Positions 43,018-55,252 of a stretch of 64,000 bases of DNA are shown piece by piece. Below the pieces are notes generated by a model. That model saw nothing but the letters and a program-made list of their open reading frames with translations. It searched no databases and was not told where the DNA came from. Both the position numbers and the translations under genes were made by a program. Every line of letters begins with the position of its first letter. Positions within the stretch are counted from its first letter, which is position 1. Source of the DNA: Alicyclobacillus pomorum DSM 14955 (GTDB lineage Bacteria; Bacillota; Bacilli; Alicyclobacillales; Alicyclobacillaceae); NCBI RefSeq assembly GCF_000472905.1, contig NZ_AXAR01000002.1:62001-126000 (forward strand), written 5' to 3'.

Positions 43018-43851
43018 GTGGGTATTCCAGAGCATGGCACACGTGAGACACCGCTGCGTCGGCTAACAATAACAGTGTTCATGCTCATTGTGTTAGCTAC
43101 CATTCTAAGTTTCGCCAACGACTCTGATCTCCTCGGGCATATTCCTAGGCAGCAACAGCTGGCGATAGATTGGGTGTTTTGTATTGTTTGGTTTGTTTGC
43201 AGCGCGTGGTTGATCCGCCATGTCGAAAGAGGAATATTTCGAATGGTCTCTGGGAGAACCAAACTGGATAATCGTGTTGCCACGCTGTGGAGCCGAGCGT
43301 TCAGTGCTATGGGTTACGCCTTTGTCCTGGTTATCGCTCTGCACCTACTCCACATCAGGGTCGGGAGTATTTTGGTTGGCGGTGCGGTCACCGGTGTCCT
43401 TGTAGGTATAGGCGCTCAGTCAACGTTATCGAATCTGTTTGCCGGGTTGGTTTTGTTCACCGTTCGTCCTTTTTCCGTTGGTCAAACCGTGACACTTCGA
43501 ACATACCTGTTCAGCGGCATTGAATACAGTGGAACAGTATCGGATATCAATTGGTACTATACCGTCCTGGTTGATGGGTCACAGAGACGCCTTGTGCCAA
43601 ATTCCGCTGTGATTGCATCAGCAATTACGATCGTGTCAGAACTTCCTTCAACACAGCTATACACCATTCCGTTGCCATACAGTCTTTCTGTATCCACATT
43701 TAAACAGCGAATACAGGAGGTATTCAACGGAGATGTAGACGTGACCATAAAGGACTTTGGAGAAGACAGTTACAGTGTCCAAATTAGGATACCTGAAGCA
43801 GCCAGCGCGGACGACCTTCGGGAAGCGATTGCACGATGTAGGGAGCAGTAA
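43018..43851 (+). CDS. MscS-family mechanosensitive channel
   Basis: 277 residues from GTG 43018, with AGGGGGAG upstream. Three membrane spans (about 17-35, 50-68, 88-130) lead into the pore helix, where GSILVGGAVTGVLVGIGAQS then TLSNLFAGLVLFTVRPFSVG is the MscS signature (G-x-x-x-A-x-x-x-G pattern, F.RPF..GD position). The soluble beta domain follows (SGTVSDINWYYTVLVDGSQR and LVPNSAVIASAI). It would open upon membrane tension and release solutes. Single gene. Confidence 0.92.
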   Translation: MGIPEHGTRETPLRRLTITVFMLIVLATILSFANDSDLLGHIPRQQQLAIDWVFCIVWFVCSAWLIRHVERGIFRMVSGRTKLDNRVATLWSRAFSAMGYAFVLVIALHLLHIRVGSILVGGAVTGVLVGIGAQSTLSNLFAGLVLFTVRPFSVGQTVTLRTYLFSGIEYSGTVSDINWYYTVLVDGSQRRLVPNSAVIASAITIVSELPSTQLYTIPLPYSLSVSTFKQRIQEVFNGDVDVTIKDFGEDSYSVQIRIPEAASADDLREAIARCREQ

Positions 43852-44626: not shown

Positions 44627-44854
44627 TCATTTCGTTTTCCTCGTAGATGAGCAAATGAAGCAGGCTACCGTTTGGCCAAATCTCATGTAGTAGCCTCTCT
44701 GAGATTCCTAATTTCCAGATATACCAGTATACTTCGATAAGCATGGGGCATTCACGTGCAGACCGAATGTGCGGTTGTATCCGGCGAAATCCGCCCGTAT
44801 CCTCGCTTTTCCTATACAAGTTAGTCTTTGATGTTTCGTTATGGACGAGCTACA
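44627..44854. other. Unassigned stretch between par remnants and riboswitch
   Basis: A minus-strand frame, SERLLHEIWPNGSLLHLLIY and EENEMIVVEIRR*, is open but unrecognised; it may be part of a lost toxin or partition gene. No other gene is seen. Confidence 0.25.
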
Positions 44855-44992
44855 CTCTACTAAACTTCGTTTGCGCTGAATCCCGAAAGGGAACGGAGGA
44901 ACCAATCTTTGGGGTGAATCCAGTCTGCCTGACTGGTAGGGCAATCTCTTAAGCCCAAACCCGACAGCTAACTTCGTAAGCGTTTAAGAGAG
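44855..44992 (+). ncRNA. c-di-AMP riboswitch (ydaO-yuaA type)
   Basis: Closing stem CTCTACTAAAC (44855-44865) pairs fully with GTTTAAGAGAG (44982-44992). Inside are the conserved blocks of the ydaO class in order: TTTGCGCTGAATCCCGAAAG, GGAACGGAGGAACCAAT, GGGGTGAATCC, TAGGGCAATCTCTTAAGCCC, CCGACAGCTAACTTCG and TAAGCG. The last block, with CAGCTAAC and a G-C-rich flank, is the family's signature. c-di-AMP normally turns these genes off. The gene below is short and unrecognised. Confidence 0.88.
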
Positions 44993-45004
44993 GAGAGCTG
45001 TGCT

Positions 45005-45301
45005 ATGCCTATTTATACGGTGACTCCAAGTTCATCACAGCGGTCATCAAAAACAGAGACCCCTAAGGCTCAGAGGGCGAAAGCCCTGCGGTCGCAGTCG
45101 AGTTTCGTTCACACAGTGGTCCCCAGATCCTCATTCAATCGGCCGTCGGTGGATGAAAGCCGGTGGAAGGTGGGAAGGTGAACCACAATTAACCATTTCA
45201 GTATACAGAACGATGAGGATTACCCACCGTTATCTCCAGTAACTGAACCCCTTGTTACTCCAGCGATGTTATCCACAGAACTGAGTTACAGGGGCGTCTA
45301 A
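45005..45301 (+). CDS. Riboswitch-controlled short ORF (58 aa) with an in-frame TGA
   Basis: ATG 45005 follows GAGGAGAGCTGTGCT, a good ribosome site 12 bp after the riboswitch. The first open part gives 58 residues (MPIYTVTPSSSQRSSKTETP, rich in Ser, Arg and Gln) and a TGA at 45179-45181. The same frame continues open for 39 more codons (TTINHFSIQNDEDYPPLSPV, then TEPLVTPAMLSTELSYRGV) to TAA 45299-45301. Either it is a 58-aa protein or a 98-codon gene that acquired a stop. No signal peptide, membrane segment or known domain is visible. The unit has its own terminator. Function unknown; the riboswitch shows it was under c-di-AMP control. Confidence 0.5.
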
Positions 45302-45316
45302 TGAACGCCCCTTTTG
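45290..45316 (+). terminator. Terminator of the riboswitch unit
   Basis: AGGGGCGT / ACGCCCCT with a 7-nt loop, then TTTG. It closes the transcript beginning with the riboswitch. Confidence 0.85.
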
Positions 45317-45610
45317 TGTAATCATTCCGTATGACCATGTTTCATTTCACCACCAATGGTAATCATCCTGAAGAACCTCGTCTCCGTTGATCTTTGAAAT
45401 CAAATCTCAGCACAGCGGAGGTGGTCGATGACGAGATATAGTTAAACGGCCGACGATGTGAGCGGTGGTGCTCCATGTGTCAATTCATATCGCGCGTCTG
45501 AGTTTTTGTTACATCGCGACTGAGATTCATTCTAGTTTTGACCGGCGCTCCTCTCCTCAGGTATTTGTCGAAGTTGGGCCGCCAATCGTGGTCCCAGGGA
45601 AGGAGGTACC
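45317..45610. other. Gap before the 56-aa gene
   Basis: No gene with a start is seen. A plus-strand open frame from about 45518 (RRSSPQVFVEVGPPIVVPGK) overlaps the start of the next gene and may be residual. Confidence 0.25.
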
Positions 45611-45781
45611 ATGGATTATTCGAGTGTATTTGAAACTTTGATTTTGTCGCGCTCCGACTTGGTTTATTGGCCAGCGATTTTGAACAAAATTCGCGGTCTC
45701 GTCGAGTCATCTGACATCAAAGTTGTCGACATTCAGCGAGACAAAGAACAACTCATCATTGTCTTTCGCAAGTGTTCTTAA
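45611..45781 (+). CDS. Small hypothetical protein, 56 aa
   Basis: ATG 45611 is preceded by GGGAAGGAGGTACC, a very strong ribosome site. It codes MDYSSVFETLILSRSDLVYW, then PAILNKIRGLVESSDIKVVD and IQRDKEQLIIVFRKCS. Composition is that of a folded alpha/beta miniprotein. It is probably co-transcribed with the IreB-like gene 51 bp downstream. No family is recognised. Confidence 0.6.
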   Translation: MDYSSVFETLILSRSDLVYWPAILNKIRGLVESSDIKVVDIQRDKEQLIIVFRKCS

Positions 45782-45832
45782 TGGCAGGTGCCGTTCACGT
45801 AGCGATATGAATTTACCGAAGGGGTGCATGTG

Positions 45833-46102
45833 ATGAACCGATTGCGTGGGTCAATGCTTCCGGTCGCTGCGTTCGAATCAATGTTGAAAAACACGGATGC
45901 ATGCCAGGCCTTGCAGTTGGCGTATTTCGCACTCGTTGAAAAGGGATACAATCCAATCCGCCAGATCACTGGTTACTTGACCTCTGGAGATCCGGCGTAT
46001 ATTACCGATCATCTCGATGCCCGTAACACTATCCGCCGGATTGAACGCGATGACTTGATTGAAGAACTGGTTCGTTTATACGTGCTCTTCAAACGACATT
46101 GA
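45833..46102 (+). CDS. IreB-family (UPF0297/YrzL-like) protein, orphan copy
   Basis: 89 residues from ATG 45833, with GAAGGGG 8 bp upstream. The signature of IreB is clear: [40 protein letters not shown] and [12 protein letters not shown]. IreB is a substrate of the PASTA kinase IreK and acts in cell-envelope stress. The canonical gene sits between alaS and ruvX; none of those is here. The N-terminus ([19 protein letters not shown]) differs from the usual one, which carries the phosphorylated Thr residues near positions 4-7. Only the middle and C-terminal parts match. It may be a divergent paralogue. Confidence 0.75.
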
Positions 46103-54926: not shown

Positions 54927-55025
54927 GCAATTGTTCGACTTTGCGCGAAGTCCTCGGATTTGTAGGGGTGACACCCTTCGACACTACGGATTGATATAAT
55001 GGACGTGCATAGAGAACGGCTCTTT

Positions 55026-55209
55026 CAGGGGCGGCTCACTCCCTTTTTCACAGGAAGGGGGTGAGAGATGATTGACGACGTACCAAGCACTGACGCTTGC
55101 CATTAACCTTGCAGGGTTGGTGTTGGCCATCGTCGCATTCAACAAGAAAGACCGCCCCTGAGTCAGCGGTGAGCGGTCTATTGCCGTTGTTCCGCACGAG
55201 CCGCCCCTG
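55026..55209 (+). repeat. Long-range 12-bp inverted repeat around the toxin gene
   Basis: CAGGGGCGGCTC (55026-55037) and GAGCCGCCCCTG (55198-55209) are perfect complements that enclose the toxin ORF and its ribosome site. In type I toxins such 5'-3' pairing hides translation until the RNA is processed. GACCGC/GCGGTC near 55150-55180 adds a second stem. Confidence 0.65.
55072..55161 (+). CDS. Holin-like type I toxin, 29 aa
   Basis: TTG 55072 with AAGGGGGTGAGA upstream codes TTYQALTLAINLAGLVLAIV then AFNKKDRP. It has a short helix, one membrane span and a basic tail: the layout of the 'putative holin-like toxin' family of Firmicutes (YxALxLxxxxxxLVLAIVxF...K). Such peptides are toxic membrane disruptors controlled by an antisense RNA. 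The antisense transcript would lie on the minus strand over 55160-55260, but I cannot see it directly. The RNA is boxed by a 12-bp inverted repeat and a terminator. Confidence 0.75.
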   Translation: MTTYQALTLAINLAGLVLAIVAFNKKDRP

Positions 55210-55226
55210 GTGAGGGCTCTATGCGG

Positions 55227-55252
55227 GCCGCCAGCGTTGCCGCGCTGGCGGC
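55227..55252. terminator. Hairpin of the toxin unit
   Basis: GCCGCCAGCG / CGCTGGCGGC with a 6-nt loop, then TTATC. It ends the toxin RNA or starts the antisense one. Confidence 0.7.

Follow-up and report, generated by a model that had tools for sequence, protein, structure and literature searches.

A c-di-AMP riboswitch in an unusual cassette copy before a small, family-less ORF in Alicyclobacillus pomorum

Introduction

What does a complete c-di-AMP riboswitch control when the only frame directly behind it is a short ORF? This question is raised by a locus in the window, the stretch of 64,000 nucleotides of Alicyclobacillus pomorum DSM 14955 analyzed here. The original prediction, made from the letters alone, described a c-di-AMP riboswitch driving a 58-codon ORF of no known family that continues in frame past a TGA, and proposed either a new type of small c-di-AMP target or a gene that had recently died. 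We find a real riboswitch in an unusual cassette copy. The state we favor, at roughly even odds, is that it controls the translation of a lineage-specific small ORF; with appreciably lower probability it is an orphan without useful cargo.

Results

The riboswitch unit

The unit reads, in order, promoter-like hexamers, aptamer, Shine-Dalgarno (SD) sequence, ATG at 45005, 58-codon ORF and a terminator-like hairpin. Its features are as follows.

44732–45134, + strand: duplicated cassette, with DNA homology to the C31 locus of the same genome (blastn, 84% over 334 bases, then 75% over 71)
44828–44856, + strand: putative promoter TTGATG-N17-TACACT, read in the sequence, 4/6 matches per hexamer
44864–44997, + strand: c-di-AMP riboswitch aptamer, RF00379, full length, 117.1 bits (cmscan)
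44945–44952, + strand: loop strand of the P7 pseudoknot, UCUCUUAA, 8 perfect pairs with 44984–44991
44984–44991, + strand: 3' strand of P7, UUAAGAGA, its last base being the first SD base
44991–44995, + strand: SD sequence AGGAG, 9 bases 5' of the ATG at 45005
45005–45181, + strand: 58-codon ORF including the TGA, the first 41 codons patterned like coding sequence when compared with the C31 paralogue
45182–45301, + strand: in-frame continuation past the TGA, 39 codons and TAA, with no sign of selection around the TGA
45290–45312, + strand: terminator-like hairpin from the terminator scan, with tail TTTGTGT; −14.6 kcal/mol

The Infernal check proposed with the original prediction was run, and RF00379 matched at 44864–44997 (+) with E 2.5e-27 over model positions 1–134 of 134, against a gathering score of 38 bits. 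This was the top-scoring of the 18 matches above the cut-off in the 3.40-Mb genome, and the riboswitch is real and complete. The aptamer ends did not show a perfect 11-bp closing stem, pairing over at most 5 uninterrupted Watson-Crick base pairs, or 8 when G-U pairs are counted (CGUUUGCG/CGUAAGCG). From the sequence, the RNA would be expected to bind c-di-AMP and to change expression with its ligand.

The P7 pseudoknot that marks the RF00379 class was present in the window aptamer with all 8 pairs intact. The pairing of loop and tail covaries over 97 loci: in 97 of 100 non-redundant loci the helix had a mean of 5.9 pairs, compared with 4.6 when partners were swapped, and the highest mean in 200 swaps was 4.9, so that 0/200 reached the observed value. 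Judged by this covariation, the P7 helix is real across c-di-AMP riboswitch loci. Among the 64 loci that have a helix of at least 5 pairs and an SD-like word, it covers at least two SD bases in 44; at the window locus the overlap is only one base and the SD sequence abuts P7.

The putative promoter agrees with the consensus at 8 of 12 hexamer positions and falls under the threshold of the promoter scan. The 17-base spacing and near-identical hexamers recur in three paralogous riboswitch loci. A ribosome site was present as predicted; the AGGAG word is absent in one paralogue, C35a. The unit had also been credited with its own terminator. A terminator-like hairpin does stand at its end, but the scan that found it is weak taken alone, with 3 terminator-like sites compared to 2.3 in shuffles. 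The hairpin starts 292 bases past the aptamer, with no terminator close by, and a terminator near the aptamer with a 5' arm matching the CGGGGG strand is absent in the window locus. In six other loci, paralogous or related, the 5' arm of the terminator (CCCCCGU or CCCCCGC) is complementary to an aptamer strand reading ACGGGGG or GCGGGGG at −15.3 to −18.8 kcal/mol, a complementarity that fits an ordinary antiterminator. The 5' arm of the window hairpin reached only −8.7 kcal/mol with the aptamer. Its 3' arm can pair with the aptamer at −12.0 kcal/mol, and for the hairpin stretch as a whole the value is −19.9 kcal/mol, in broken helices; direct coupling of hairpin and aptamer through some other pairing is possible.

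Coding pattern of the ORF

The predicted 58-residue product is basic (11 K/R, 3 D/E). It matched no Pfam family at E ≤ 1, and the claim that the ORF belongs to no known family holds. Its sole good relative was a 57-codon ORF in the same place behind the C31 riboswitch of the same genome. Over 41 aligned codons the two differ at 31 sites, distributed 8, 7 and 16 over the three codon positions, with dN 0.193 and dS 0.758 (dN/dS about 0.25), and the frame is preserved across a 36-base gap in the alignment. When the same comparison was made in shifted frames, dN was not below dS. Random placement of the differences gave p 0.008 for dN/dS and p 0.014 for third positions, and a binomial test of the third-position excess gave p 0.027, all from one pair and its 31 differences. 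Nucleotide identity to the paralogue was 75% in the ORF, 76% in the promoter segment and 75% in the stretch behind, and is thus not higher in the ORF. The codon comparison is moderate evidence that an N-terminal part of about the first 41 codons is translated; the level of nucleotide identity speaks against it. The proposal of a new small c-di-AMP target likewise receives moderate support from the frame kept across the gap and the third-position excess.

In the 17 codons up to and at the TGA (45179–45181), the differences from the C31 copy number 7, 7 and 6 by codon position, which is no coding pattern. The continuation noted in the original prediction is open to a TAA at 45299–45301, but not beyond chance: by simple arithmetic, with 3 of the 64 codons being stops, 39 codons in a row stay open with a probability of about 0.15. 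Since there is no coding signal beyond the first 41 codons, the extension past the TGA looks like chance. The stop-interrupted gene was the least supported part of the original prediction, and recent death of the gene found no support since the TGA interrupts nothing demonstrably coding.

Searches for homologues

A search for conserved, uninterrupted homologues behind the same riboswitch had been proposed as a check, and none were found in the related genomes searched. With the C31 paralogue as query, 0/40 other family genomes held a convincing homologue; the family search (41 genomes) returned the genome's own two copies and three weak matches, with E from 0.0086 to 0.045. A search with the two-row alignment over 398 genomes drawn from the class, the own genome included, gave one match in the 397 others (E 9.6e-4), with two stops inside. 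The searches also covered the own genome and 2 genomes of the genus, and a genus match in G001 (E 0.048) was dropped; it has two stops inside, and no Rfam match reached the gathering score at its locus. No homologue was found in phages. DNA of the unit matched 11 plasmid records only within about 44879–44995, that is, within the aptamer. Because no convincing homologue was found in these genomes, the whole 58-codon ORF is possibly without function. A LysM remnant was considered, as the paralogue begins YTVVPGSS, and was dropped for want of Pfam support.

A copied cassette and the genes behind it

Parts of the unit recur elsewhere in the genome. By blastn, the C34 copy is 87% identical over 272 bases (common to window positions 44744–45009) and ends just past the ATG, and the C35 copy is 82% identical over 147 bases (common to 44852–44997) and ends with the aptamer. 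Homology with C31 continues beyond the ATG into the ORF, and the window aptamer is near-identical to that of C31a. An ATG stands at +7 after the aptamer in 4/4 paralogous loci (window, C31, C34 and C35).

At this ATG, C34a and C35a have short ORFs of 12 and 27 codons, with an aptamer-complementary CCCCCG terminator close behind, followed by a phosphodiester glycosidase gene in C34a and a ProP-like transporter gene in C35a. The window and C31 copies have no CCCCCG terminator, and their ORFs run to 58 and 57 codons. The corresponding aptamer strand reads ACGGGGG in C34a and C35a, and ACGGAGG in C31a and C2a, the window copy. Since the latter two have no such terminator, it appears as if the pairing constraint has lapsed in their aptamers.

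The 130-base promoter segment has six copies in the genome at E ≤ 1e-19. Three of these precede genes for EctA (TIGR02406, 168.4 bits, cut-off 120.6), a PHB-type esterase and an amino-acid permease, and no Rfam riboswitch was found at those three at E ≤ 5. The copy before the amino-acid permease retains a degraded aptamer start, with 76.7% identity over 172 bases including the promoter. Ectoine is an osmolyte and, therefore, the segment is plausibly an osmostress promoter. Contig C1 (L248, L250, L251) carries two promoter-cassette copies, before ectA and the amino-acid permease gene, and a paralogue of the 56-aa gene described below.

Riboswitches of this genome mostly precede transporter and envelope-type genes, judged by position only. 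C35a stands before the ProP-like transporter (its top NCBIfam match is ProP, with 488.8 bits, under the cut-off of 544), C34a before the phosphodiester glycosidase, 460 bases on, C31a before a UDP-glucosyltransferase-like protein, 366 bases on, and C32a before a cytosine/purine permease. C2b precedes a protein with LysM and SLT domains, C31b one with LysM and cell-wall hydrolase domains, and C34b one with an NlpC/P60 domain. By its downstream genes, the window copy departs from this pattern. The original prediction had held that it would fall if the riboswitch normally controls another gene. This is half the case, because the unit is one of several dispersed cassette copies and most riboswitches of this genome precede transporter and envelope-type genes.

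The neighborhood in the window

Two genes follow the unit on the same strand and are outside it unless the terminator is read through.

45611–45781, + strand: unnamed 56-codon ORF, with relatives in 34/41 family genomes (own included)
45824–46102, + strand: second ireB copy (PF06135, 95.6 bits), whose start and upstream stretch match the C1 locus

A match to the C1 locus (L248) covers the 56-aa gene and the start of the second ireB protein; on C1 the corresponding sequences precede and begin, respectively, a 364-codon ORF. The second ireB is apparently a chimeric gene. The usual ireB is on C33, between alaS-like and ruvX-like frames named from their translations. With the 56-aa gene and ireB start matching C1 and the usual ireB on C33, the neighborhood of the unit is a patchwork. 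Upstream of the unit, on the same strand, lies an MscS-like mechanosensitive channel gene (43018–43851, +). Further along the window, RF01412 (BsrG type I toxin-antitoxin RNA) matched at 55008–55250 (+) with 68.1 bits (gathering score 55). Inside this match is a 29-codon TTG-started ORF at 55072–55161, MTTYQALTLAINLAGLVLAIVAFNKKDRP, which looks like a small membrane toxin of the BsrG kind.

Leader ORFs behind c-di-AMP riboswitches of the family

We examined 127 of the 298 RF00379 matches in 41 genomes, namely the full set of 18 from the own genome plus 109 of the other matches, taken from the higher-scoring part of the list; 100 loci were left after removal of near-duplicates. G013_L053, with bounds shifted by a contig end, was left out of the start-codon, terminator and P7 counts. 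A long gene follows directly in 28/100 non-redundant loci and does not in 72/100. In the latter an ATG at +7 occurred in 14/72 loci, compared with 1.15 expected, and an ATG anywhere from +2 to +9 occurred 34 times in 32 of the 72, compared with 9.2 expected, the expected counts being taken from positions +20 to +99. GTG was also enriched at +2 to +9 (24 vs 9.0) and TTG was not (12 vs 13.2), and these counts speak against a leader-ORF reading.

In the 14 non-redundant loci with a close terminator hairpin and an ATG behind the aptamer, the first in-frame stop was inside the hairpin in 8/14, compared with 4/28 in the two other frames (Fisher p 0.006). The terminator finder reported 25 hairpins in 126 loci; inspection by eye found that it missed those of L032, L033, L034 and L048, and that L119, one of the 14, has a false hairpin inside a 140-codon frame. 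At C35a a close terminator is present, yet the ORF runs through it. When seven short-ORF pairs were pooled, 42/89 differences fell at third positions (p 0.005); these pairs were hand-chosen after pairwise pN/pS comparison of the ORFs, and over all 81 pair choices p ranged from 0.0005 to 0.043, or from 0.015 to 0.086 for the five equal-length pairs alone. Since the loci are partly related, all p-values for leader ORFs are too small. Some pairs looked non-coding (L056/L084, pN/pS 1.19; L095/L101, 1.12), and several SADPP pairs gave 0.6–0.8.

A 61–62-codon ORF in the same position in G008, G009 and G015 was clearly coding (pN/pS 0.12–0.16) and, thus, small proteins directly behind a c-di-AMP riboswitch do occur. 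At these loci (L037/L066, L040/L062, L038/L061) the conserved ORF lies between tandem c-di-AMP riboswitches, and a UspA-like ORF comes next in G008 and G009. Leader ORFs of 28–48 codons follow the riboswitches at L095, L101, L105, L106, L127, L129 and L132. Their peptides, MLYTA... and MYRRF..., share an (S/T/A)ADPP motif and otherwise differ. No paper on a leader peptide of a c-di-AMP riboswitch was found among open-licence papers.

Discussion

We read the unit as a rearranged cassette copy, made of a promoter and a c-di-AMP riboswitch and probably belonging to the osmostress response. The explanation we favor, which we consider about as probable as all others combined, is that the riboswitch controls translation of a lineage-specific small ORF. 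Transcription would start at a promoter segment of the kind that also stands before ectA. With c-di-AMP bound, the aptamer would close P7 (44945–44952 with 44984–44991), which ends on the first SD base, and the ribosome would be hindered at the ATG at 45005; when c-di-AMP drops under osmotic or K+ stress, the ORF would be translated. The CCCCCG terminator that could serve direct antitermination in the paralogues is missing in the window and C31 copies and, therefore, ribosome control at this ATG would be the simplest platform left. The product would be a basic, lineage-specific 58-residue peptide of which about the first 41 residues are kept. Translation of the ORF and a function of its peptide are inferred. 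Several findings count against this reading: the single base that P7 shares with the SD sequence, the alternative pairings of the window hairpin with the aptamer, a codon comparison confined to one pair and 31 differences, the failure to find a convincing homologue in 40 other family genomes, an ORF no more similar to its paralogue than the flanking stretches, the AGGAG word missing in C35a, and a promoter that agrees with the consensus at only 8 of 12 positions.

Another possible explanation, with a clearly smaller share of the probability, is that the rearranged copy has no useful target and that a short leader ORF, once its terminator was lost, lengthened into the 58-codon frame without gaining a function. 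The 12- and 27-codon ORFs at the same ATG in C34a and C35a agree with this, as do the failure to find convincing ORF homologues in the 40 family and 397 class genomes, the patchwork neighborhood that shares the 56-aa gene and ireB start with C1, and the permease-side copy, in which only a decayed aptamer start is left. It is harder to reconcile with the third-position excess in the ORF and with the aptamer, which outscores the 17 others in the genome and is near-identical to that of C31a, so that either selection still acts on it or the copying was recent. The 39 further open codons would be explained by a pseudogene of a longer protein, at least about 98 codons in length, that the TGA inactivated, and in the C31 paralogue the stop (TAA) does lie at a different place, within a local insertion, with none at the position of the window TGA. 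We regard this as very improbable, as the 17 codons to the TGA have no codon pattern, no protein family was matched and no uninterrupted homologue was found in the family and class genomes.

The ORF could also act as a gate, its translation causing read-through of the terminator to feed the 56-aa gene and the second ireB. Those genes are on the same strand about 300 bases past the hairpin, no promoter-like site turned up in the scan from 45316 to 45611, and the frame continued past the TGA finishes in the hairpin loop. This reading is unlikely, though less so than the killed longer protein. The silence of the promoter scan says little, as it also missed the riboswitch's own putative promoter, and the ORF's own stop lies 111 bases ahead of the hairpin, not in it as in a leader-ORF attenuator. 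Furthermore, the 56-aa gene and part of its upstream stretch occur on C1 without the cassette, and the pairing of this gene with ireB was seen in 0/20 named IreB loci (flanks up to 5 kb) and 0/9 other loci of the 56-aa gene (1.5 kb).

A broader and more speculative idea, to which we give about one chance in five, is that c-di-AMP riboswitches of the family often gate the ribosome of a leader ORF, which blocks the hairpin as it translates, and that the window unit is an escaped leader ORF in an osmostress regulon. In such translation-coupled attenuation, the P7/SD tail, the ATG at a fixed distance and the stop inside the hairpin would together allow the ribosome to keep the hairpin from forming. 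The window unit would then have escaped from its attenuator to become a small protein gene under c-di-AMP control.

If the small ORF is translated, it would be an unusual c-di-AMP target, a lineage-specific peptide rather than a transporter or wall enzyme, and an example of a riboswitch cassette that was copied and handed new cargo. The leader-ORF pattern, if it holds, would bring a ribosome-dependent platform into a class usually described as a direct terminator or ribosome-site switch. If neither holds, the locus would be a decaying copy of an ordinary riboswitch. Overall, a stress-control cassette seems to have been copied and reshuffled here, and the copy now drives either a small protein peculiar to this lineage or nothing of use.

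Compared with the RF00379 ydaO/yuaA class, the window likewise has an aptamer that covers the full model, P7 included, and differs in having a short, family-less ORF in place of a transporter or wall-enzyme gene. The ydaO riboswitch is listed in a review among those in which the aptamer docks on and occludes the ribosome site (PMC10907184). C34a, C35a and their relatives in G020 and G022 share the aptamer and the ATG behind it, C34a and C35a also the promoter hexamers, and they differ from the window by the aptamer-complementary CCCCCG terminator close behind. The Bacillus thuringiensis kdpFABC c-di-AMP riboswitch likewise has its aptamer in the 5' leader; there, its ligand is reported to promote termination and to lower expression, K+ limitation raises it, and an intrinsic terminator follows the aptamer directly, where the window has an SD sequence and ATG instead (PMC6488665). 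A short ORF under a riboswitch is also found in Mycobacterium tuberculosis, where B12 riboswitches with translated uORFs that shape downstream expression are described; those uORFs lie inside the aptamer (metE) or overlap the gene (ppe2), and ligand and aptamer are other than in the window (PMC11260477).
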